From Salegentibacter echinorum (lineage in GTDB: Bacteria > Bacteroidota > Bacteroidia > Flavobacteriales > Flavobacteriaceae), in assembly GCF_900129445.1 (NCBI RefSeq), contig NZ_FQVT01000014.1, positions 1-64,000 of the forward strand: a stretch of DNA of 64,000 bases, read 5' to 3'. The notes beneath the pieces were generated by a model. The model ran no database searches, had not been told where the DNA came from, and was given only the letters and a program-made list of their open reading frames with translations. Every line of letters starts with the position of its first letter. Position 1 is the stretch's first letter. Below, piece after piece: positions 4,405 through 45,926 of the stretch. A program made the translations under genes and the position numbers.

Positions 4405-4522
4405 AACGATACAGGCATACGAGGAAGAATAAGAGCGACAAACCGCTCCTTTACAATAGAAGAGTTTATATAACTAATCCAAGCTTCAATCCCCGAAAGC
4501 TTTACATGAATTAAAAAGAAAT

Positions 4523-4682
4523 GGCAGGTATTCTGACTTGCTTTATCCACCCGGCCTTCCCATCTAAAAAAGAAAGTGACCAATTATTGGGCTTCATCAA
4601 AAAGCTTACAGCTGCGGGACAGTTCTGGAATTTCACCAGATTCCCTTTTTAATGCCTACGCAGGTAGGCAACCATTGCTAAA
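4523..4682 (-). promoter_or_regulatory. Cobalamin (AdoCbl) riboswitch
   Basis: Read on the minus strand, the leader holds the conserved core G-G-T-G-A-A-A-T-T-C-C-A-G-A followed by a C-T-G-T-C-C-C-G-C motif (about 4646-4611), and it ends with A-G-T-C-A-G-A-A-T-A-C-C-T-G-C-C (about 4539-4523). These are hallmarks of cobalamin riboswitches. It ends about 120 bp before btuB and should turn the operon down when B12 is plentiful. A short open frame overlapping it (4401-4583) is not a gene. Confidence 0.93.
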
Positions 4683-4866
4683 AAATAAAATGCAAATCTA
4701 GATATAGTTTTTAGAATATATTAAGGTTTTTGAATAAAAGTTTTTCAAAGGTATTTTTAAGACTCAAAATCGAGAATTTTGGGAGATCAACACGAGCGAA
4801 AAGAATTTTATAACAACAATGCAGGCCATGTAGGATAAGAAACTCTGAAAGAGTAAAAAAAGTCCC
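4683..4866. other. Intergenic, upstream of the riboswitch
   Basis: About 180 bp between the riboswitch and the end of the next minus-strand gene. The promoter of the B12 operon must lie here; I see no gene. Confidence 0.4.
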
Positions 4867-7916: not shown

Positions 7917-8626
7917 ATGCCTTTTTTAGTTTTTTAATGTGGGAGAATTTCGAACCACTGGTCTCATTAATGGTAAATTGAAGGTGCAAAATAACTGTCT
8001 TTTGAACGTTTTGGGTATCATTAAAGTTGAATTTAAAAAACTGGAACTCTCCAATGGCAAATCATGCCTTAAAAGCGAGAAGATCATTTTATTCCAATTT
8101 TTATCTGAGAAGTCAAATTCGATTTAATTTCTGTCTTAATGAGGATATTTCAATTTTATAACCCATCAACCCATTATCCTGCATTTAACTAAATAACCTT
8201 TCCTGAGTTTTTCGACTTAACTGAGGAAAAGCTTTTAATCGTAAGACTAAATCCCAGGCAAGAGGCTTTCTTCCCAAAGTCTTGAACACAATCCCAAATT
8301 TTAGTTGTCCATCGCATTACACCTTCCGCCCCGCGGAAGAATTCATTCCATTCCAAACTTAAGATTGGGAATAGCGTTCGCTTTAATAGAATTTCATTTT
8401 TTCAAGTAATACCACTTTCCGTGTTTTTATAATTCATTGTAGTTATTTAGACCTACTTCCCGAGCCACCGCTGCCCCTACCCTTTTTATGTAAGCAAAAT
8501 ACCAATACCCGGAAGTTTAAATAGGTTTCCAAAATCCAGTCAGTAATTGTCGTTTTTGACGCTGAACTGAATTTCTCTAATAATTTAATTATTAAAAAAT
8601 TCTCTACGAAAGATATATTTTAGTAT
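7917..8626. other. Long intergenic region with a GC-rich hairpin
   Basis: About 700 bp without a supported gene. It holds a short GC-rich perfect hairpin (CTTCCGC, three-base loop, GCGGAAG at 8323-8339), conspicuous in this AT-rich stretch. A tRNA-T-loop-like string near 7950 lacks the rest of a tRNA. Confidence 0.4.
8323..8339. repeat. Short GC-rich inverted repeat
   Basis: Seven-base perfect arms around CCC. It has no T-run on either side, so it is not a normal intrinsic terminator; it could be a protein site or a repeat remnant. Confidence 0.4.
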
Positions 8627-32763: not shown

Positions 32764-34230
32764 TTAATTTTCTGAAATATTCTCATCATTTATAAATTCT
32801 TCAGAAGAAAAATCTTCTGAAGCATCAAAACTTAAATTCTTAGAGAGTTCAAATAAGTGTGCTTCGGTTTCAAAAAAATGCATCATATAACCTGCGGTAT
32901 TAACAAAAGCTACATAATCTCCAGGCTGCGGTAATTGTGGTAAACTAATTTTTCTTTTAAGCAACAAGTCCCGCTCCAAACAATAAGCACCGGTAAAAAA
33001 CACATCAACCGGCAAACCAGCTCCTGCTTTTTTTCTATAAATAATAAAAGGGTCCAATAAGAAATCTGAACTGGAACTCATCATTTGGCTCATATTCATT
33101 TCTAGTCCCACAAGCCATTGTCCCTTATAATCCTGTTTTCGGTGTGCCACCCGTGCAACGGTCATGCCAACTTGATTGAGTAAAGAACGTCCCGGCTCAA
33201 TACGAATTTCAAGTTGATGTTTCTTTAAACGCTCTGCATTTGATCTTCCAGATTTTAAATCCTTATAGTCTAGAATGGCTTTTAAGAAATCGGTACCGTT
33301 TAAGGAATTATAATAAGGATATGTTTTGAGTGTTCGCACCACCTTTCCCTCAATTTTTTCATATCCCAGCCCATTATTATTAAATGTAAGATTTCCCTTA
33401 CCCGAACTAACTTGTTCGCGCAATTGTGCATCAAAATCTTTCCATTGCTGCTCATCTTGAAGATAATTCATTAGAATTCCGCCGCCAATATCAATAAATT
33501 TTATTTGAAAACCTTTGTCGTTTAGCTGCTCAGTTAAACTTATAGAATCACTCAAAGCTTTACCACGCTGCAGCGTAGAATAACCATCTAAATGAAAATG
33601 AATACCATCTACACACAGATGTTCAAAACGTTTTCCCTCACCCACATTTTCTAAAATAAACGTACTAACTTGGGTTATATCAAAACCAAAGCGGCTATAT
33701 AATTTTTCGTCTTCTACGGTAAAACCACTTACCCGAAACCCTACGATGGCTTTTTTACCCAATTTCCTGGCAAAAACGTTGGCCTGTTCACATTCATCTA
33801 AATTATCTAAAATTATAGGGACTTGATTTTTAATGGCAAGTTCATATTGGTCCTGTGTTTTAATTGCTGCAGTTAACACGAGATTTCTGCCAGGGGCACC
33901 TAAATTCAAAGATTGTTCCAACTCCCTGAAACTTGCGGTGTCAACTCCAATACCCGATGCAAAAGCTTGCTTTACCAAAGACTTACATTTATTAGCTTTG
34001 CGCGCATAAAAAATTTGATGACGCAATCCATAATCATTAAAAAGATATTGATACTTCTTGATATTAGTGGAAAATGTAGGTAGATGGTGAATGTTAATGG
34101 GAGAACCGTATTTGCCAAACAGATCATTGAGCAAAGCTTCATCATTAAATATAGAATGCATCCATTTTGAAGTTATGGGGCTAAGCCCTCCTTGCGGATT
34201 TCCTTTAGTATATGTTGTATTTTTATTCAA
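32764..34230 (-). CDS. PLP-dependent decarboxylase, SbnH / LysA-like
   Basis: A 488-residue group IV (ornithine/diaminopimelate/arginine) decarboxylase fold. The PLP lysine is Lys78 in F-Y-A-R-K-A-N-K, followed by H-F-H-L-D-G-Y near 211-217, G-G-G-I-L near 249-253, E-P-G-R-S near 341-345, and C-L-E-R-D near 420, which supplies residues at the dimer active site. The closest functional group is SbnH, which decarboxylates the diaminopropionate part of staphyloferrin B; genuine LysA is normally shorter. It is the last gene of a three-gene operon, with an 8-bp overlap with the preceding gene. Substrate not known. Confidence 0.82.
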   Translation of the reverse strand: MNKNTTYTKGNPQGGLSPITSKWMHSIFNDEALLNDLFGKYGSPINIHHLPTFSTNIKKYQYLFNDYGLRHQIFYARKANKCKSLVKQAFASGIGVDTASFRELEQSLNLGAPGRNLVLTAAIKTQDQYELAIKNQVPIILDNLDECEQANVFARKLGKKAIVGFRVSGFTVEDEKLYSRFGFDITQVSTFILENVGEGKRFEHLCVDGIHFHLDGYSTLQRGKALSDSISLTEQLNDKGFQIKFIDIGGGILMNYLQDEQQWKDFDAQLREQVSSGKGNLTFNNNGLGYEKIEGKVVRTLKTYPYYNSLNGTDFLKAILDYKDLKSGRSNAERLKKHQLEIRIEPGRSLLNQVGMTVARVAHRKQDYKGQWLVGLEMNMSQMMSSSSDFLLDPFIIYRKKAGAGLPVDVFFTGAYCLERDLLLKRKISLPQLPQPGDYVAFVNTAGYMMHFFETEAHLFELSKNLSFDASEDFSSEEFINDENISEN

Positions 34231-36061
34231 TTGCTTTTTCTTTAGTTGCTTTGTTCTGTATATTCAGGATAACATCTTTCGCCCATTGTGATGCAAAATT
34301 GTTTCGCCTTCTGGAAAGTGTATCATTATCATAAGTTACTCCTTCGGTAGGAGTGCCGTAAAGGGAAAGTCCAGCTTGTGCATTCCCGTTAATATCCCGG
34401 CCCCGTCCTTTAAAATCTATATCTATGCCTTTCGATATGTAATTTCCCCCATTTGTATTGCAAAAAATTCGCAACAAACCATCTTTTATAAGATTATGAT
34501 ATAAAGTATTGTTAGATGGAATACTGCTCCTCGGAATTCTCGCATTAATAAGAGTATGAATATGTACTTTCTTTAAAGTCTTTTTTGAATGCTTTTGAAG
34601 GTAGAATAATTGATATTCTCCTGTTTCTTTCAATTCAATTAATTGCGGATTTCGAATCATATCAAAGCAGATTATTCCTGCTTTTGCAAGCGCTAATATT
34701 TTTTGCATATTCTCAATAGGTGGTCCGTAAGCGATTCGGTTGAATAAACCAAAGTATTGCTCATCAAACAATTTATGTGATTCAGCATCCAAACGACCAA
34801 AACTATAAATTTTATTAAACACGGGACTAATTGTACGCCAGGTTCCTACAGCTGCCATTAAAGCACTTTCTTTAGGACCTTTTTTAGCTTCAGAAATTAA
34901 ATAGGTTATATAATTTACCATCTCCGTATGGGAAATATATTGCTGATTTAAAAATGGATCTATAATTTTACACCAATCAAACTTTTCTTCAGAAGTAAAG
35001 TCGATGTGGAATTGCCTTACCTGAGCCACAATATTTTGAAAATCATGATGATATTTAAGCTTGCGGTTTCGATTTTTGAAAAGTACACTGTAATACCTAA
35101 AATAACATTCTTTTTTTATGAGAGGCAGCAAGGTTTTTAAAAATGATACTCCTGTTGGAGACTTTGTTGCTGCTATATTTTCGTTAGTAAAGAAAAATAA
35201 TGAGTTTATGTCATCTCCAGCTCCACTTCTGGGAAACATGGGCAAACCTGTTCGCGAAAAAGGATAAATACACGTTGGTTCTTTTGCAGAACGTTCATAA
35301 GCATAGTTATTTTCCGAAGTTACTTTAAAAACACCTCCCCTGCCTTCAGTCACTTCAAGGATGGCGTCTATACAAGTCAATCCGAATCCCTGTATGGCGA
35401 TCGAGGATAATTTTGAAATAGATAGCAATTTTGACCTGGTGGGATAAATAAAATCAATGTAATGGGACTTTGTAACCTTCTCGTCAAATTTAGCTCCGGC
35501 TCCCAAATGACCTGTAGTCAATAATACAACGTCAAAATTAGAAATTTTAGAACTTGTGTCTATATCAGTTTCAATTGTAAATTGCTTTCCTACTTTGATA
35601 ATATTAGTAACCGTAGCAATATGGGTATGCCAAAAGATATTTTTGGGTGAACTTTCACGCAGGCGTAAAAAAGCTTTCTCTAAATAGGTTCCCACCAATG
35701 CCCTCGATGAAAATTTATCGGTATTAATACTAACAGGAGCTCCTGTTCGCTGTGCTATCCAATCTGAAAAATTTAAAGCACCATCTACTACTGCATCTGG
35801 TTTTTCTCTACACCAAATGTCAATATTTTTATTGGCGTAATTCATTATCAAATAATTAGGTTGGTCGCTTCGATATACATTTCCCGAACCAAAAAATGGA
35901 TTCTGATTATAAATATGTAGTTCAATAAAAGAAGTGATTTCCCTGTCCTTTATTTCAGCTAAAAATCGCTCTAAAGCAAAAAGACCTTTGGGTCCCAGTC
36001 CTACAATGCCCAGCTTGTAACAATTCCCAACAGAAGATTGATTATTTGGAGAGCTTACCAT
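34223..36061 (-). CDS. FAD/NAD(P)-binding oxidoreductase (NAD_binding_9 type)
   Basis: A 612-residue flavoprotein. N-terminal Rossmann motif G-L-G-P-K-G-L at 21-27; the family's G-S-G-N-V-Y-R-S-D-Q-P-N-Y-L-I-M-N near 58-75 is present, followed by a second nucleotide-binding region (L-L-T-T-G-H-L-G near 180-187) and G-F-G-L-T-C-I-D near 224. A C-terminal stretch carries R-I-P-R-S-S and L-S-L-Y-G-T-P-T-E-G. It is the only redox enzyme of the operon and is flanked by SbnA- and SbnH-like genes, so it may oxidise or hydroxylate an amino-acid intermediate. It is not SbnB, which is an ornithine-cyclodeaminase-type protein. Overlaps both neighbours by 7-8 bp. Confidence 0.8.
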   Translation of the reverse strand: MVSSPNNQSSVGNCYKLGIVGLGPKGLFALERFLAEIKDREITSFIELHIYNQNPFFGSGNVYRSDQPNYLIMNYANKNIDIWCREKPDAVVDGALNFSDWIAQRTGAPVSINTDKFSSRALVGTYLEKAFLRLRESSPKNIFWHTHIATVTNIIKVGKQFTIETDIDTSSKISNFDVVLLTTGHLGAGAKFDEKVTKSHYIDFIYPTRSKLLSISKLSSIAIQGFGLTCIDAILEVTEGRGGVFKVTSENNYAYERSAKEPTCIYPFSRTGLPMFPRSGAGDDINSLFFFTNENIAATKSPTGVSFLKTLLPLIKKECYFRYYSVLFKNRNRKLKYHHDFQNIVAQVRQFHIDFTSEEKFDWCKIIDPFLNQQYISHTEMVNYITYLISEAKKGPKESALMAAVGTWRTISPVFNKIYSFGRLDAESHKLFDEQYFGLFNRIAYGPPIENMQKILALAKAGIICFDMIRNPQLIELKETGEYQLFYLQKHSKKTLKKVHIHTLINARIPRSSIPSNNTLYHNLIKDGLLRIFCNTNGGNYISKGIDIDFKGRGRDINGNAQAGLSLYGTPTEGVTYDNDTLSRRRNNFASQWAKDVILNIQNKATKEKAIE

Positions 36062-37053
36062 CCAATTGCCGAATTTTTAATTTGATGACTTTCAGGAAAT
36101 TGTTTGGCTACCCATTCTGGATTGAAAATTGTATCCAAATAACGTTCTCCGCGATCACTCAATAAGAAAACACAATTTGTTGAATTGTCCATTTTACTCT
36201 TATAGCGCTCTATTGCTGAAATCACACCACCGGTGGAGCCACCACAAAGAATACCTTCTTTTTTTAGAAGAGACCAACAGCCTTCAATGCAATCCAGATC
36301 ACTTACCGCAATGTGATCCCAAATTTTATTTACATCTAAAAATTGCGATGGAACACCGGCACCGTGGCCTGGTATAATTCTATTTTTTGAAGGTCCCCCA
36401 AAAAGCACGCTTCCCACGGCATCTACCGCGACGATCTTAATATTTAAGTTATTTTCCAAAATATAATCTGCATACCCCATTAGTGTTCCGCAAGTACTCG
36501 TCGCAACAAATATATAATCAACATCGCCATTCATTTTCTTAATAATTTCATCAATAGTTTGATGATGCGCCAAAGGATTATTAGGATTACCGTATTGGTC
36601 TGTCCAATAACTGTTAGGTATCTCTTGCAATAATTCTTGTACTCTGTTTAAACGAGCAGCAAGAAAACCTTTATTTTTAACTGCAGTATGAACGTAAGAT
36701 AATTTAGCCCCATATGCTTTTAATAATCTTTCAGTATGTGGATTCAAGTTTGGATCTACAACTACCACCAACTGCAAATTAAAATGGATGCAAGCCTGGG
36801 CAAGTCCCAGTGCCATATTTCCAGAACTCGATTCTATAATAGTGTCCCCCTCTTTGATACTGCCATTTTCCATGGCTTTTTTTAATATAAAGACAGAGGT
36901 TCTATCTTTAAGACTTCCACCAGGATTTGAAGCCTCCATTTTTCCGAAGAAATTTATGTTATTCGTAGAAAATAATTTCTTTAATTGTATTAAAGGAGTA
37001 TGACCTATAGCATCAGCAATATTTCCGGCAGGTTTACAGATATCTAAGATCAT
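36055..37053 (-). CDS. Cysteine-synthase-fold enzyme, SbnA-like
   Basis: A 332-residue PLP enzyme of the beta-replacement family. PLP lysine Lys49 in N-P-G-G-S-L-K-D-R; substrate loop E-S-S-S-G-N-M-A at 74-81, where Met replaces the Thr of cysteine synthase, as in SbnA. G-G-S-T-G-G for the phosphate is near 271-276. SbnA joins O-phosphoserine to glutamate on the way to L-2,3-diaminopropionate. First gene of a tightly overlapping trio on the minus strand. No SbnB or siderophore synthetase (IucA/IucC-like) is in the window, so the final product is unclear. Confidence 0.85.
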   Translation of the reverse strand: MILDICKPAGNIADAIGHTPLIQLKKLFSTNNINFFGKMEASNPGGSLKDRTSVFILKKAMENGSIKEGDTIIESSSGNMALGLAQACIHFNLQLVVVVDPNLNPHTERLLKAYGAKLSYVHTAVKNKGFLAARLNRVQELLQEIPNSYWTDQYGNPNNPLAHHQTIDEIIKKMNGDVDYIFVATSTCGTLMGYADYILENNLNIKIVAVDAVGSVLFGGPSKNRIIPGHGAGVPSQFLDVNKIWDHIAVSDLDCIEGCWSLLKKEGILCGGSTGGVISAIERYKSKMDNSTNCVFLLSDRGERYLDTIFNPEWVAKQFPESHQIKNSAIGW

Positions 37054-37464: not shown

Positions 37465-37740
37465 TTATCCTTCCGTCAACCTAAAATTGTTAATACTCCT
37501 TTCTCCCAGCATCTTTTGCCACTTCTCCAACAAAGGTTTTTCCAAAGACTCTTCCCTGAATTCGTCTGGATTCATAATGGGAATGCCACTAATGATAGGA
37601 TAAATACGACGGCAATTGTCGCAGGTTAAAATGCCTTCAATCACATTTTGAGTTTTTTCCTCCATGGTTATTGGATCTAAAGTCAAATCGGATTTATCAA
37701 ACGGACAGCACAACTTATCCTTAATCGTTTGGTATTTCAT
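37465..37740 (-). CDS. Trm112-like small zinc-binding protein
   Basis: A 91-residue protein with the Trm112 layout: N-terminal L-C-C-P-F-D-K (Cys11, Cys12) and the L-T-C-D-N-C-R-R-I-Y-P-I pair (Cys40, Cys43), then G-I-P-I-M. Trm112 proteins bind and stabilise SAM methyltransferases. It is the last gene of a TPP-riboswitch operon whose first gene is a SAM methyltransferase, so it may be that enzyme's partner. Its start overlaps the stop of the ThiE-like gene by ATGA. Confidence 0.8.
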   Translation of the reverse strand: MKYQTIKDKLCCPFDKSDLTLDPITMEEKTQNVIEGILTCDNCRRIYPIISGIPIMNPDEFREESLEKPLLEKWQKMLGERSINNFRLTEG

Positions 37741-38369
37741 TGTTCAATTTCTTTTAATAGGTTATTGTATTTTCTCAATATTTTTTGAGGATTTTTGGCA
37801 TTCATTATAGATGAGACCATAGCAATGCCATCAAAAGGTAATGATTTTAGCAATTCAATTTTTTCCAGATTTATTCCACCGGCCAGATAAATGGGCAACT
37901 GGGTGAGACTTCTGCATTTTTCAATGCTTTTCCACCGCACTATCTCGCAATTATCTACGGTAGAAGAGGGAAACAGAGAGCAAAATGAAAAGTAATCAAA
38001 GCCTAGATGTTCAGCGTTTTTTACATACGACAAATCATTTTCTAAGGTTAATCCTTTTAAAAGTAAACGGTCTAAATTTTGCTCCACCCGGGAAATGTTT
38101 TCAGGAAGCATATCAAAATGGATTCCGTCAAAATTCATTTCCTGGCATAATTCCCATTGGTTGTTAATTAAAACCGGTGTTTTCGTAGAAGAAAACAAGT
38201 CGATAATGGCTTGCAACAAGGCTTTGTCCCAGGTTTTAATTTTGGGATTATCCCAAATCTGCAGTGCAGCTATTTCTTCCTCTTTTATTTGAGTGAGCTG
38301 AGATAAAATCTGGTCGGCTTCCATCGCCGGATCAATCACTAAGTATATTCCTTTTGACAATTTTTTCAT
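37737..38369 (-). CDS. Divergent ThiE/TenI-like protein
   Basis: A 210-residue TIM-barrel protein related to thiamine-phosphate synthase: it starts G-I-Y-L-V-I-D, has a beta/alpha repeat pattern, and a late A-G-G-I-N segment near 173-177. Several ThiE substrate residues are not in place: the Q-x-R-x-K motif of strand 2 appears as L-Q-I-W-D-N-P-K, and the G-x-I-F-x-T-x-T-K region reads S-L-F-P-S-S-T. It may therefore not be a normal thiamine-phosphate synthase. One base separates it from the upstream HypE-like gene, and a 4-bp overlap joins it to the Trm112-like gene. Confidence 0.72.
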   Translation of the reverse strand: MKKLSKGIYLVIDPAMEADQILSQLTQIKEEEIAALQIWDNPKIKTWDKALLQAIIDLFSSTKTPVLINNQWELCQEMNFDGIHFDMLPENISRVEQNLDRLLLKGLTLENDLSYVKNAEHLGFDYFSFCSLFPSSTVDNCEIVRWKSIEKCRSLTQLPIYLAGGINLEKIELLKSLPFDGIAMVSSIMNAKNPQKILRKYNNLLKEIEQ

Positions 38370-38370
38370 A

Positions 38371-39420
38371 CTAATCTAATCTATTTTCCAGGGCGTTAAA
38401 AAAAGCTTTCCAATAAGGATCTTCTTTATAAATCAATTTTTCTTCATCTTTGGCAGTTATTATCTTTCGATTCGTTTTTTCAGATAGTGTCTCTCCAATT
38501 TTTCCAGCTCTTATTCCATTTTCCTGTAATAAATTGACCACATTTTTCGTTATTTCCTTTGGGCAGGCTATCAATAAACTTCCCGCCGCAATACAGCGGT
38601 AAGGATCTATGTCGAAGAGTTGACAGAGCTGGTTTTGCGCTTCTCCCAATGGAATTTTATTTCGGTGAATTTCAACACCTGTTTCGCTGGCTTCACAAAG
38701 TTCATATATCCCGCCCAGTACACCACCTTCTGTGCAGTCGTGCATTCCCGAGATTTGACTAAATAATTCTTTATCACTCCTTAAAATTTGTAATTCTGGT
38801 AGTACACTAATTTGGTACAGGCTATCTGCCAAATCCTTTTGCATTTCCTGTCCCAAATGAAGAGAAGTATGTTTTGGAAAGCTTTTAGCCAAAATCGCCG
38901 CACTGGATAAAGCCGCTGTCTTTGTTAAAATAAGATCCTGATTGGGCTTGATAAATACTGTTGACTTTGCGAGAGAGAGTTTTACTTCTGAAAACATTGT
39001 AACCGCCCCTGAAATGGTCGTTGGACCTTTATTGCTAAAACCGGTATGCCCGCCCGTAATGGAAATTTTCATTCCTTTACAAAACAGATGAATTTGGTGC
39101 CAATATTCATTTAGCTCTTCATCCCTTAAATCTTCGGAAAAATTAAATACAAACTGTGCGTATTGAGGTAAGAAACCGCTGGTAGCAATATCATTAGCCG
39201 TTAAAACGACCGATAACCAGGCAGAATCTTTCATTCCCAATGAAGGCACTAAGCTCGTAGGATCACTGGCGGTAACTAGTCCTGTGTTTTCTCCCGTTCT
39301 AATGAGTGCGGTATCTACTCCAAATTGTGGTCCTTGAAGAACTTTTGAATTTTTAAACCCTGTTTGTTGAGTGAACAACTCTTCCAATAAATCACGCTCA
39401 ATTTTGCCTGTCTTAGCCAT
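38371..39420 (-). CDS. AIR-synthase-related (HypE/ThiL/SelD-like) ATP-binding protein
   Basis: A 349-residue member of the PurM-type superfamily. The N-terminal half has D-T-A-L-I near 32-36, T-A-S-D-P near 49-53, and L-T-A-N-D-I-A-T-S-G near 72-81, which line the ATP site; a glycine-rich I-S-G-A and a second D-C-T-E-G-G-V-L-G-G-I-Y-E-L near 226-240 follow. ThiL, a thiamine-phosphate kinase, belongs to the same superfamily, but the pattern here is closer to HypE-like proteins. Its start shares bases with the stop of the methyltransferase. Confidence 0.8.
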   Translation of the reverse strand: MAKTGKIERDLLEELFTQQTGFKNSKVLQGPQFGVDTALIRTGENTGLVTASDPTSLVPSLGMKDSAWLSVVLTANDIATSGFLPQYAQFVFNFSEDLRDEELNEYWHQIHLFCKGMKISITGGHTGFSNKGPTTISGAVTMFSEVKLSLAKSTVFIKPNQDLILTKTAALSSAAILAKSFPKHTSLHLGQEMQKDLADSLYQISVLPELQILRSDKELFSQISGMHDCTEGGVLGGIYELCEASETGVEIHRNKIPLGEAQNQLCQLFDIDPYRCIAAGSLLIACPKEITKNVVNLLQENGIRAGKIGETLSEKTNRKIITAKDEEKLIYKEDPYWKAFFNALENRLD

Positions 39421-40142
39421 TATACTACATCTTTAAATTGAATATACATCCCAAAAAAATCGCCTAAGGGGTAATCCCATTGCTGTACAGGAAACCATTT
39501 TGGCAAGCCTGTACAATGCCATCTTATGGTATAATCCCGACCGTGCAAAGCTTGTTCTATCAGCTTTTTTAGCTTGTTGGGCGTATAGAATGTAGCGGTG
39601 TTGTAGAATTGATTTTTTCCAAAAGCTTGCTGCGTGCGGCGTCGAATCAATTTAGGAGTGTTACGATTCATCATCCCCATAATGATTCCGTATTTCCCTA
39701 CCCGGGCTGCTTCGCGTAAAACCTGAATTGGATCTTTATAATATTCAAAAGTGGTGATAAATGCCACGGCATTAAAAGTATGATCTTTAAATGGAAGGTA
39801 GTGCGAATCGGCCATCACCAATTCACCATCAAAACGATGTAAAGCCTGTGACAACATAAACGGCGAAATATCTCCACCCGTTGCCTGGATGCCAATTTCT
39901 TGCCACCACCGGGTAAACCTTGTAGTGCCGCAGCCAAATTCCAGCAAGTTTTCTACCCGCGTATCTGCTTTAATTAGTTGTTCTAGCAGTCGTTTTTGAT
40001 ATACTTCTGCCCTTTTGTAGGGTCCCTCGTAATACTCTTCATATGTATCGGTATATTTCCTGTTAAAAAACCATTCTGATCGTCCTTGCCAGGTTTCGGT
40101 TTTTTCGGGTACGAGTTGTTGATTTATTTTTTTTATATCCAT
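39420..40142 (-). CDS. Class I SAM-dependent methyltransferase
   Basis: A 240-residue methyltransferase. SAM motif I is E-F-G-C-G-T-T-R-F at 68-76; G-G-D-I-S near 94 binds the ribose; the D-S-H-Y-L-P-F motif is near 108-114. The first 45 residues are charged and aromatic-rich (W-F-F-N-R-K-Y-T-D-T-Y-E-E-Y-Y-E-G). It is the first gene after a TPP riboswitch. No clear substrate; the Trm112-like gene at the operon end may be its partner. Confidence 0.88.
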   Translation of the reverse strand: MDIKKINQQLVPEKTETWQGRSEWFFNRKYTDTYEEYYEGPYKRAEVYQKRLLEQLIKADTRVENLLEFGCGTTRFTRWWQEIGIQATGGDISPFMLSQALHRFDGELVMADSHYLPFKDHTFNAVAFITTFEYYKDPIQVLREAARVGKYGIIMGMMNRNTPKLIRRRTQQAFGKNQFYNTATFYTPNKLKKLIEQALHGRDYTIRWHCTGLPKWFPVQQWDYPLGDFFGMYIQFKDVV

Positions 40143-40169
40143 TGTTTAAATTCTTTTAAAAATAAAAAA

Positions 40170-40198
40170 ACCATTCCCTGGGAATCCAACGGAATGGT
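40170..40198 (-). terminator. Terminator hairpin of the TPP riboswitch
   Basis: Between the aptamer and the methyltransferase, the minus strand shows ACCATTCC pairing with GGAATGGT, followed by seven T residues. This is an expression platform for transcription termination when TPP is bound. Confidence 0.88.
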
Positions 40199-40223
40199 GC
40201 AATGGAATATATAATATTCATAA

Positions 40224-40300
40224 ATCTGCATCCCTACGTTGGCATTATCCAAATCAGGTTTCGGGTTTTATCTCAGCCTTCCGGCACCCCGTGCATCTAT
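40224..40300 (-). promoter_or_regulatory. TPP (thi-box) riboswitch
   Basis: On the minus strand the leader carries G-G-G-G-T-G-C, G-G-C-T-G-A-G-A, A-C-C-C, then A-C-C-T-G-A-T-T-T-G-G-A-T-A-A-T-G-C-C and G-T-A-G-G-G-A: the conserved core of the thiamine pyrophosphate aptamer, with pairing P2 to P5 in order. It controls the four-gene operon that runs from 40142 down to 37465. Confidence 0.95.
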
Positions 40301-40924
40301 ATTTCAAGGTTTAATTTTAGTAATTACACTAAAACTTTACAGCTTAATTGGTAAAGGTACAAAATAAGAAAGAACATGAAGAATTTTCTAGTCAGACTTT
40401 TGTAAGTAAAATCTCACCCTCATTGCTTCAAAAATTTTTCTGAATATTTGAAAAAATTAATACGACATCTTTGTTGGTATTAAATTCTCAATGCGATTTA
40501 TTATCATTCCGCCTAACATTTAAACACCTATTAGCCAGTTTTTTAAGAAAAATTAATTCTAAAAAATAAAAGCTTTAATTAAGTGATGTTAAATTTCACT
40601 CCTTATTCTGTAACGAGAACATTAGCTATTTTCGAAATGAGCAATTTAGCTGAAGAAAATTACAAAAAAAATATTTAGGTGCTATTCATCGGATTTTTTG
40701 TACCTTTCGTCTGACTTACTGTTTTAGTAATACAAATGTATTATCCTATAAAGTCATTTTACAGAGACAAAAACACTTGTAATTGTCGTTTTACCCTACA
40801 AGGAGAAATAAAAATTTTATTAATCCTTTTACCGCATTTTCAGTGCTAGACTGTAAATAATTCTTGATTAAATAAAAGTCTTGTTATTGTAAACTTTCTT
40901 CTTTTAGAAAGAGAATCTTATGCT
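40301..40924. other. Long divergent intergenic region
   Basis: About 620 bp. It holds the promoter of the TPP operon (minus) and that of the TPR/HTH regulator (plus). A -7-like element TACCTTTCG is near 40700. No gene seen. Confidence 0.4.
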
Positions 40925-42968: not shown

Positions 42969-45926
42969 ATGAAGAAACTATTACTTATCCTGTTTATTTT
43001 TATTGGTTTTTATGGAAATGCCCAAGTGGGTATAGGAACCGATATGCCCAATCCTTCAAGTCAACTTGAAATTGTCGCAAATGATCGCGGGGTTTTAATA
43101 CCCCAGGTACCTCTTTCCGGATTGACCGACAAAACAACCATAACTAACGGAAATGTAGAGAGCTTGCTTGTATTTAACACCTCTACTACCAATAATATTG
43201 TACCAGGGTACTATTATTGGTATAACGGTAGCTGGAAAAGAATTGCTTCCTCCGATAATACAAACACTAATATCCCAGATAATATTGTAATATGGAACAG
43301 TGAAAATGAAGAGTTCGTTTATTTGAATAAAGACGGTGATCGTGTAAATATAAGTTTAAATGAAATTGCAAATGAAAGTATCACTACTCTTATTGATAAC
43401 TTAGACGGAACTTATACTTATACAAGTGAAGACAATACAGTTACCACGATAAATGTTCCTGCCGATGTTATAGGTAATATTAATAATAATGGAATCATTT
43501 ATGAAAAGATAATTAATCTTATAACCAGCAATAATTTTAATTCGAGTATAACTGATAATGGAGATGGAACTTTTACCTATACAAATACACAAGGAAATTC
43601 GACAAATTTCGACGCTAACACTACAACCCTTGTAGACAATGGGGATGGAACTTATGATTTGACCAATGCTGATGGCAGCACGATCAATATTAATACCAAT
43701 GCTGCTAGCAATACATACGACAACACCAACTCCGGCCTTGCCTCTGGTAATGTACAGGACGCTTTGGATGAGATCCAACAAAACCTGGAGGATACCAGCA
43801 GTGATTTTGGCAATATCGATCTAACCGATAATGGAGATGGCACTTTCACTTTTACCGATGGAGATGGAAACCCTACAAACTTTGATGCCAATACCACGAC
43901 CTATACCAACAATAACGATGGCAGTTATACCTTTACCAATGCCAACGGGGAGACTATGACCATATCAGTGGTTTCAGACGTGGTGACCAATATCCAAAAT
44001 CAAGGTGATATTTATAATGAAATCATCAATATTGTAGGTGATACTTCAGATGCTTTGGTCGATAATGACGATGGTACTTTTACCCATACCGCAATGGATG
44101 GCACCGAAGTAACCTTTAATGCCAATACCACTTCTGTAACCGAAACCGATGGGGTTTATACTTTTACCAACCCTGCCGGCAATACCATCACAACCATAGA
44201 TACCAATGCCAGTGCTTTGGGATATGACAACACCAACTCCGGCCTTGCCTCCGGTAATGTACAAGATGCTTTAGATGAAATTGCAGGAACAACTGGTATT
44301 GTTTCTCCTTTATCTGATAATGGAGATGGTAGCTTTACTTATACCGATGAATCGGGAGCTTCAACTACGTTTGATACCAATAACGTAAATGTTTCTTTAG
44401 CTTCTGGTATTTACACTTTTAACGATGCTGATGGAAACACTATCACAACCATAGATACCAATGCCAGTGCTTTAGGATATGACAACACCAACTCCGGGCT
44501 TGCCTCTGGTAATGTACAGGACGCTTTGGATGAGATCCAACAAAACCTGGAGGATACCAGCAGTGATTTTGGCAATATCGATCTCACCGATAATGGAGAT
44601 GGCACTTTCACTTTTACCGATGGAGATGGAAACCCTACAAACTTTGATGCCAATACCACGACTTATACCAACAATAACGATGGCAGTTATACCTTTACCA
44701 ATGCCAACGGGGATAGTATGACGGTAACACTGGTTTCAGACGTGGTGACCAACATCCAAAATCAAGGGGATATTTATAATGAAATCATCAATATTGTAGG
44801 TGATACTTCAGATGCTTTGGTCGATAACGGAGATGGGACTTTTACCCATACCGCAATGGATGGCACCGAAGTAACCTTTAATGCCAATACCACTTCAGTA
44901 ACCGAAACCGATGGGGTGTATACCTTTACCGACCCTGCCGGCAATACTATCACAACCATAGATACCAATGCCAGTGCTTTAGGATATGACAACACCAACT
45001 CCGGCCTTGCCTCTGGTAATGTACAAGATGCTTTAGATGAGATTGCGGGAACAACTGGTATTATTTCTCCTTTATTAGATAATGGAGATGGTAGTTTTAC
45101 TTATACCGATGAATCCGGAGCTTCAACTACTTTTGATACCAATAACGTAAGTGTTTCTTTAGCTTCTGGTATTTACACTTTTAACGATGCTGATGGAAAC
45201 ACTATCACAACCATAGACACCAATGCCAGTGCAATTGCTTTTGATAATTCCACTAATCAATTCACTGCAAATAATGTTCAAGATGCTCTTGAAGAATTAG
45301 CTACTTTAGTTGATACTAATAAAGGAGATTTAACTGTGGACGGTGGTATTGAGTTTACAGGTGGCACCGATGGGGTTAATAAGTTATTAGACGATATGGG
45401 GATTCAAATTGCAGACGGTGGAATCAACACAATTAAACTTGCAGATGGTGCAGTAACTGCTCCAAAACTGTCATCTGGGGTAGGTGCTCCCAATCAGGTC
45501 CTAACAACAGATGGTAATGGGAATGATGCGCAACTCGCCTGGAAAAATATAGAAGATTTTGCGCCTGCACCGAATTTTTTCTATATGCCCGCAGTAATAT
45601 TTGAAACTATTCAAACAGGTACAGGTTTACAGCGAAACCTTTACGAGGATTATAAAAATCAATTTTCCGGGCAGCAGTTTGATGTAGCTCATGGTGCAAG
45701 TGGTTCTTCAAGAACATATACAGGTGGATTAGTGGGTAGTACTGGAGCTCCTTCAGCTATCCACGTATTCGAATCTAACGAATTATACTATTACATCACA
45801 TATTATGATCAAGACGTTTTTGCAAACCTAACTATAGACGAAAACGGGGTACTAACATATGATATCATTAATGATGCCTCCCCTACTTCCTATATGAACA
45901 TCGTATTTGTAATTAAGAATGAATAA
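42969..45926 (+). CDS. Large secreted repeat protein (adhesin-like)
   Basis: A 985-residue secreted protein. A signal peptide (about 1-18) is followed by a domain starting Q-V-G-I-G-T common to flavobacterial surface proteins. From about residue 135 to 757 it consists of beta-strand modules with D-N-G-D-G-T-F-T-Y-T and N-T-N-S-G-L-A-S-G-N-V-Q-D-A-L-D-E-I motifs, then a C-terminal globular domain (about 790-985), with L-A-D-G-A-V-T-A-P-K-L like phage tail-fibre proteins. The central 254-residue block is duplicated nearly exactly (43716-44477 and 44478-45239). D-x-D-G loops may bind calcium. No T9SS CTD is visible at its end. Confidence 0.85.
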   Translation: MKKLLLILFIFIGFYGNAQVGIGTDMPNPSSQLEIVANDRGVLIPQVPLSGLTDKTTITNGNVESLLVFNTSTTNNIVPGYYYWYNGSWKRIASSDNTNTNIPDNIVIWNSENEEFVYLNKDGDRVNISLNEIANESITTLIDNLDGTYTYTSEDNTVTTINVPADVIGNINNNGIIYEKIINLITSNNFNSSITDNGDGTFTYTNTQGNSTNFDANTTTLVDNGDGTYDLTNADGSTININTNAASNTYDNTNSGLASGNVQDALDEIQQNLEDTSSDFGNIDLTDNGDGTFTFTDGDGNPTNFDANTTTYTNNNDGSYTFTNANGETMTISVVSDVVTNIQNQGDIYNEIINIVGDTSDALVDNDDGTFTHTAMDGTEVTFNANTTSVTETDGVYTFTNPAGNTITTIDTNASALGYDNTNSGLASGNVQDALDEIAGTTGIVSPLSDNGDGSFTYTDESGASTTFDTNNVNVSLASGIYTFNDADGNTITTIDTNASALGYDNTNSGLASGNVQDALDEIQQNLEDTSSDFGNIDLTDNGDGTFTFTDGDGNPTNFDANTTTYTNNNDGSYTFTNANGDSMTVTLVSDVVTNIQNQGDIYNEIINIVGDTSDALVDNGDGTFTHTAMDGTEVTFNANTTSVTETDGVYTFTDPAGNTITTIDTNASALGYDNTNSGLASGNVQDALDEIAGTTGIISPLLDNGDGSFTYTDESGASTTFDTNNVSVSLASGIYTFNDADGNTITTIDTNASAIAFDNSTNQFTANNVQDALEELATLVDTNKGDLTVDGGIEFTGGTDGVNKLLDDMGIQIADGGINTIKLADGAVTAPKLSSGVGAPNQVLTTDGNGNDAQLAWKNIEDFAPAPNFFYMPAVIFETIQTGTGLQRNLYEDYKNQFSGQQFDVAHGASGSSRTYTGGLVGSTGAPSAIHVFESNELYYYITYYDQDVFANLTIDENGVLTYDIINDASPTSYMNIVFVIKNE
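43716..45239 (+). repeat. 762-bp tandem duplication inside the adhesin gene
   Basis: Two near-identical units, 43716-44477 and 44478-45239 (254 codons each). Within each unit the N-T-N-S-G-L-A-S-G-N motif recurs after 507 bp and then 255 bp, so the unit itself arose from smaller modules. The repeat keeps the reading frame, so copy number could change the protein's length. Confidence 0.9.

Follow-up and report, generated by a model that had tools for sequence, protein, structure and literature searches.

A four-gene operon under TPP riboswitch control in Bacteroidota looks like an undescribed way to obtain or mend vitamin B1

The four-gene locus

Analysis of a 64,000-nucleotide stretch of Salegentibacter echinorum DNA (NZ_FQVT01000014.1, contig 33 of its genome, G000; the whole stretch is called the window) identified on the minus strand a thiamine pyrophosphate (TPP) riboswitch followed by four genes, which code for an S-adenosylmethionine (SAM) methyltransferase, an AIRS-type ATP enzyme, a ThiE-fold protein and a Trm112-like protein. 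This TPP-controlled set looks like an undescribed way to obtain or mend vitamin B1. The elements of the locus are the following:

40214..40301, minus: TPP riboswitch aptamer (RF00059, 66.9 bits)
40155..40205, minus: expression platform, a terminator-type hairpin with a T-run (script, folding score)
39420..40142, minus: class I SAM methyltransferase, 240 amino acids (Methyltransf_11)
38371..39420, minus: AIRS/AIRS_C ATP-type enzyme of the HypE/SelD/ThiL/PurM superfamily, 349 amino acids (AIRS and AIRS_C)
37737..38369, minus: ThiE-fold protein with a substituted pyrophosphate/Mg site, 210 amino acids (TMP-TENI)
37465..37740, minus: Trm112-like protein with a CC...C..C motif, 91 amino acids (Trm112p)

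The aptamer scored above the gathering score of its Rfam family (66.9 versus 54.3 bits, E 5.7e-11), is located ahead of a gene and is accompanied by an expression platform, the features by which members of RF00059 are recognized. The platform, between the aptamer and the first ATG, is a hairpin with a T-run (-15.6 kcal/mol, z -3.07) that was equalled by 1 of 200 shuffled sequences; it was absent from the list given by a simple terminator consensus scan of the window. An earlier note, made from the letters of this DNA alone, had described a TPP aptamer followed by a terminator: in the window this terminator is evident, but a strict script detected such a hairpin in only 25 of 82 related loci (and in none of 82 shuffled ones), therefore the expression platform is either non-uniform or poorly detected in the relatives.

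The four open reading frames (ORFs) are packed, neighbours overlapping or lying 1 base apart. Each protein exceeded the cut-off of its Pfam family or families. None of the four reached an NCBIfam equivalog cut-off, in agreement with the earlier view that no standard thiamine enzyme is encoded here.

Occurrence and conservation of the operon

At a threshold of E 1e-48, 3 of 149 Flavobacteriaceae-level relatives yielded a close orthologue of the ThiE-like protein, and 11 of 296 genomes of the phylum yielded the methyltransferase at E 1e-60, the window genome being counted in both. A scan of genome contigs with a single protein gave no match; a scan of named genomes with a methyltransferase alignment did find relatives, 220 in all, and the 80 highest-ranking of these were retained. 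Judged by their titles, these 80 belong to many Bacteroidota genera and one metagenome-assembled genome (MAG) labelled Fibrobacter. Adding the window and loci from two other genomes gives a set of 83, 82 of them complete (L045 ends after the AIRS gene).

The neighbourhood search proposed in the earlier note showed the order methyltransferase, AIRS enzyme, ThiE-like protein, Trm112-like protein, on one strand, in all 82 complete loci. The core of a TPP aptamer was recognized upstream by pattern in 78 of the 83 loci and by Rfam in the remaining five; the same pattern was absent both from the 649 other pieces of these loci, each 700 bases long, and from all 83 shuffled upstream regions. Loss of the aptamer in relatives, which the note had named as one of two findings that would tell against it, was thus not seen in any of the 83. 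The flanking genes vary between lineages, therefore the four genes are the unit. The operon is confirmed as real and widespread.

Median pairwise identity was 0.81 for the methyltransferase, 0.58 for the AIRS enzyme, 0.45 for the ThiE-like protein and 0.59 for the Trm112-like protein, the first value being biased upwards because the loci were selected by the methyltransferase. In the two relatives that were picked through the ThiE-like protein, too, the methyltransferase is the best conserved of the four: identities were 81 and 68% (methyltransferase), 39 and 38% (AIRS), 41 and 37% (ThiE-like) and 53 and 51% (Trm112-like).

A tree built from 37 of the 82 concatenated four-protein sets mixes families: the window branches with Parapedobacter and the MAG labelled Fibrobacter (support 1.00), and Salegentibacter groups with Albibacterium (support 0.95), although some nodes are weak. 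This disagreement with taxonomy suggests that the operon spreads horizontally. Two Arenibacter species carry two copies each (L062 and L076; L064 and L077), all four with a TPP aptamer.

Horizontal spread would suit an ecological trait such as a means to inactivate or repair antimetabolites of thiamine, or damaged thiamine, brought in by transporters; methylation and ATP-dependent chemistry could mend or disarm such an analogue. TPP repression is, however, an odd control for detoxification and no further support was found, the flanking genes not having been annotated systematically; we consider this function improbable.

A defence system, a phage origin and plasmid carriage were rejected. PADLOC gave weak matches only (mad2, 25.8 bits; Csn2, 27.3 bits), no relative turned up when viral sequences were scanned with the alignment of ThiE-like proteins, and a plasmid collection contained no match to the methyltransferase at E 1e-12. 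For the AIRS protein, 22 records of that collection matched, at less than 60% identity.

The ThiE-fold protein

The predicted structure of the ThiE-like protein (pLDDT, the predicted local distance difference test, 95.3) matched Bacillus subtilis ThiE best, with a template modelling (TM) score of 0.83; TM scores for TenI were 0.70-0.74. Fold and family profile (PF02581, 84.7 bits) agree in placing it in the ThiE family. Its scores were below the curated cut-offs for both thiE (80.3 versus 145.1 bits) and TenI (PRK07695, 37.8 versus 251 bits).

Residues were aligned to B. subtilis ThiE, the numbering being anchored by the K159A entry 3O16. R59, K61, D93, D112 and K159, which we take to be the pyrophosphate/Mg residues of ThiE, were kept in none of the 82 sequences: R59 is replaced by W and K61 by N or H in all 82, D93 by N in 80 and by Q or E in two, D112 is never retained, P being its replacement in 74, and K159 is mostly A, S or V and never K. 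Other pocket positions, with roles that we likewise assume from ThiE, are retained: Q57 and the GGI loop in all 82 sequences and N92 in 81, with T in place of S130 throughout. C130 and C141 are invariant across the 82 ThiE-like sequences. For the pyrophosphate/Mg residues the alignment bears out the earlier note's description of a ThiE-like protein without the substrate residues of ThiE. Cut-off and residues together reject a standard ThiE identity, and the cut-off a standard TenI one. We infer from the alignment that the protein may hold a thiazole- or thiamine-phosphate-like ligand, without pyrophosphate chemistry.

The AIRS enzyme

By profile comparison the AIRS protein is nearest to HypE, followed by SelD and ThiL, with equivalog scores below the cut-offs of hypE (79.1 versus 251.6 bits) and thiL (48.3 versus 184.15 bits). 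A cysteine within the last six residues, presumably characteristic of HypE, was absent from 82 of the 83 loci and present in one. HypE, SelD and ThiL identities are thus rejected by curated cut-offs and residues. A role as a missing thiamine monophosphate kinase was also rejected: canonical ThiL was above cut-off in all 58 genomes searched (in the window genome at G000:C29), and no further kinase of this kind is needed. It follows that the step from thiamine phosphate to TPP through ThiL is available to all of them.

The methyltransferase and the Trm112-like protein

Known partners of Trm112 in archaea and eukaryotes are enzymes that modify tRNAs, rRNAs or a release factor. The Trm112-like protein of the operon exceeded the PF03966 cut-off (32.1 versus 22 bits), kept the four Trm112 cysteines in 82 of 82 loci and is encoded with a SAM methyltransferase, the arrangement reported in the earlier note and that of a Trm112 activator; it scored below Trm112_arch of NCBIfam (57.3 versus 77 bits). 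Among the fold matches of the methyltransferase, the archaeal Trm112-bound Hvo_0019 (6f5z) appeared at ranks 15 and 18. These sequence features argue for a putative pairing of the Trm112-like protein with the operon methyltransferase.

If the pair does the kind of work known for Trm112 enzymes, the operon might modify a tRNA, an rRNA or a protein; it might also make some other small molecule. Either activity would economise on TPP or stand in for a step that depends on it. The identity of the methyltransferase (0.81 versus 0.45-0.59 for the other proteins, inflated by the selection of loci) is what a macromolecular target might demand. This explanation leaves unexplained a ThiE-fold protein with part of the ThiE pocket, and also TPP control in genomes where the other TPP aptamers mostly precede importers; we judge it quite unlikely.

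Thiamine genes in carrier genomes

Thiamine genes were counted in 37 distinct carriers of the operon and 21 non-carriers, all the latter being Flavobacteriaceae; L061 was left out, and G419 and G451, which have the same coordinates, were counted once. Full-length matches to ThiG (over 340 bits) and ThiD (over 160 bits) were each found in 12 genomes, the same 12; short, low-scoring matches, which reached 31.8 bits for ThiG and 59.1 bits for ThiD and in many cases exceeded the low cut-offs of these families, were taken to be other proteins. ThiC was present in 4 of the 37 carriers, and full-length ThiG and ThiD in these same four only, so that 33 carriers are without all three. ThiC was found in 8 of the 21 non-carriers, a difference (Fisher p 0.02) that is confounded by kinship. 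Matches to TPK were present in 8 carriers and 4 non-carriers. The ThiE-like protein was the sole TMP-TENI member over cut-off in 29 of the 37 carriers; the other eight have a second such gene, one of them marginal.

These counts bear on two other explanations. In the first, the ThiE-fold protein would join a pyrimidine to thiazole phosphate with a leaving group other than pyrophosphate, which the AIRS enzyme and the methyltransferase would prepare, and the operon would replace ThiD and ThiE or part of de novo synthesis. The 29 carriers with no other TMP-TENI protein would fit, as would the retention of Q57, N92 and the GGI loop while the pyrophosphate/Mg set was lost, and the invariant C130 and C141 could conceivably serve as nucleophile. 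However, the 33 carriers that have neither ThiC nor ThiG yielded no source of pyrimidine or thiazole in a search that did not extend to THI4 and Thi5, and the eight carriers just mentioned retain another TMP-TENI gene. Such a synthesis is unlikely in our view.

The second is degradation of thiamine for carbon, nitrogen or sulphur, to which two invariant cysteines in a thiamine-enzyme fold might point. TPP control of this class shuts a pathway when its substrate is plentiful, so TPP would switch the operon off, and 33 of the 37 carriers are without ThiC, ThiG and ThiD; degradation is therefore highly improbable. Salvage, modification or degradation had all been offered in the earlier note: salvage is favoured, while degradation fits badly with TPP repression and with these carriers.

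Other TPP aptamers and transporters

The window genome contains two further TPP aptamers (47 and 42.6 bits, both below the gathering score), located ahead of a PnuT-like gene and of a TonB receptor. In 15 other carriers a threshold of E 1e-4 gave 39 TPP aptamers, not all of which reached the gathering score; 15 of the 39 are at the operon. Twenty of the 24 non-operon aptamers were examined: 13 precede a TonB receptor like that of the window genome, five a PnuT-like gene and two (L156 and L167) neither. Of the remaining four, two stand in tandem within examined stretches and two weak ones were left out.

In two carriers a DUF6687 protein follows directly after the TPP-controlled TonB receptor (L159:1746-2813 and L162:1376-2455). 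In Marivirga a NadR-like AAA_28 protein (L160:3849-4400) follows a PnuT-like gene with a TPP aptamer and is a candidate thiamine kinase.

In the window genome an acyl-CoA-dehydrogenase-like flavoprotein is encoded directly after the PnuT-like transporter (G000:C14, 21175-22182, minus; L039/L175). A match to it at E 1e-10 was found in 20 of the 37 carriers versus 4 of the 21 non-carriers; it adjoins PnuT in 15 carriers versus one non-carrier (Fisher p 0.005), a comparison confounded by kinship because the non-carriers are all Flavobacteriaceae. Also speaking against a role as fifth enzyme of the pathway, a TPP aptamer above the Rfam gathering score was present in only 3 of 20 flavoprotein loci, and a loose pattern in 13 of 24. 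A congener of the window strain without the operon has a short match interrupted by three stop codons (G031:C3, 33738-34055). A fifth-enzyme role for the flavoprotein is conjectural.

Proposed function

Four features speak for salvage or repair with delivery to ThiL: the TPP aptamer, the importers that mostly follow the other TPP aptamers in these genomes, hosts mostly without ThiC, ThiG and ThiD, and a ThiE-type pocket. We propose that the operon is a self-contained, TPP-repressed acquisition module whose product is passed to ThiL, a proposal that we hold to be about evenly balanced. At low TPP the riboswitch would permit reading of the operon, repression by TPP being expected from the aptamer class. 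The substrate would enter through the co-regulated TonB receptor and PnuT. The ThiE-fold protein would not use hydroxymethylpyrimidine (HMP)-pyrophosphate but would take into its former ThiE pocket a phosphorylated compound that resembles thiazole or thiamine phosphate. The AIRS enzyme may use ATP to activate a group on this compound, conceivably by phosphorylation or by a ring closure or dehydration like those of PurM and HypE, and the methyltransferase, kept active by the Trm112-like protein, might methylate it. The product would be thiamine phosphate or a direct precursor, which ordinary ThiL would convert to TPP. The order and chemistry of these steps are conjectural, and salvage is the favoured direction.

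Several observations weigh against this module. To our knowledge, known thiamine salvage has no obvious place for a methyltransferase; the model of this protein is moderate (pLDDT 69.4) and its fold matches are generic, and the substrate and product named above are putative. Thirteen of the 21 Flavobacteriaceae without the operon are also without ThiC, therefore such cells manage without it. THI4, Thi5, YjbQ, ThiM and TenA were outside the carrier gene search, and genomes negative for TPK may hold an undetected kinase. In favour of the module, a distant AIRS homologue adjoins genes for a thiamine-binding protein and a thiamine ABC transporter in all three Haloarcula plasmids examined, but these are close kin, and none of five other AIRS homologues adjoins thiamine genes (three are beside hydrogenase or cobalamin genes, two beside others). 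Finally, pairwise distances of the four proteins correlated only moderately (r 0.47 to 0.77, the minimum for methyltransferase versus ThiE-like protein), so that gene exchange within the unit is possible.

A more specific version of the acquisition module is tentative and falls somewhat short of even chances: in auxotrophic Bacteroidota a horizontally spreading route would turn an unrecognised environmental vitamer into thiamine phosphate by SAM methylation, a PurM-superfamily ATP enzyme and a pyrophosphate-free ThiE-fold enzyme, sometimes with the PnuT-side flavoprotein. Conserved under TPP control in Bacteroidota that are mostly without ThiC, ThiG and ThiD, the four uncharacterised proteins may indicate that a vitamer and a pathway are still missing from the vitamin B1 cycle.

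Other features of the window

Downstream of the operon a three-gene cluster (32764-37053, minus) codes for an SbnA-family enzyme (381.4 bits versus an NCBIfam cut-off of 349.95), an FAD-NAD-binding protein and a LysA-like decarboxylase, and looks like a siderophore-type (diaminopropionate) pathway. A link between the operon and this cluster was rejected: it was not seen in the other genomes, whose flanks differ. The window also contains a cobalamin riboswitch (4506-4691, minus, 110.1 bits) and a PreQ1 riboswitch (7920-7964, minus, 41.8 bits), which brings to three, with that for TPP, the riboswitches within one 64 kb stretch. An ORF of 985 amino acids (42969-45926, plus) has a translation with long internal repeats of the DNGDGTFTFTDGDG type.

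Comparison with known systems

The ThiE-like protein shares the barrel fold of B. subtilis ThiE (2TPS/1G4x/3O15) and keeps H107 in addition to Q57, N92 and the GGI loop; it differs from ThiE in the five pyrophosphate/Mg positions and in falling below the thiE cut-off. The ThiE fold is also that of the thiazole tautomerase TenI, but the TenI profile matches more weakly than that of ThiE (50 versus 80-81 bits), and the histidine that we take to be catalytic in TenI was not apparent in the stretch where the family has GxTxxN, though TenI itself was not aligned there directly. The AIRS enzyme has both domains of the HypE/ThiL/SelD/PurM superfamily and misses every equivalog cut-off; a canonical ThiL is present besides in each of the 58 searched genomes.

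The pairing of a class I methyltransferase with a CC...C..C protein resembles the Trm112 holoenzymes, such as Hvo_0019-Trm112 of Haloferax volcanii (6F5Z), from which the operon pair differs in being bacterial, TPP-controlled and below the Trm112_arch cut-off.

Searches of the open-access literature gave no title on the four-gene operon, most subscription journals lying outside their scope, which accords with the earlier note's statement that no such pathway was known. The TPP regulon of Bacteroides is given as thiSEGCHF-tenI, OMthi and pnuT-tnr3 (PMC5613172); the four-gene operon is not among the operons named there, and the main text of that paper does not contain the word methyltransferase. 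In control by a TPP aptamer and in the kinds of importer under that control, the regulon described in that text and the one found here are alike.

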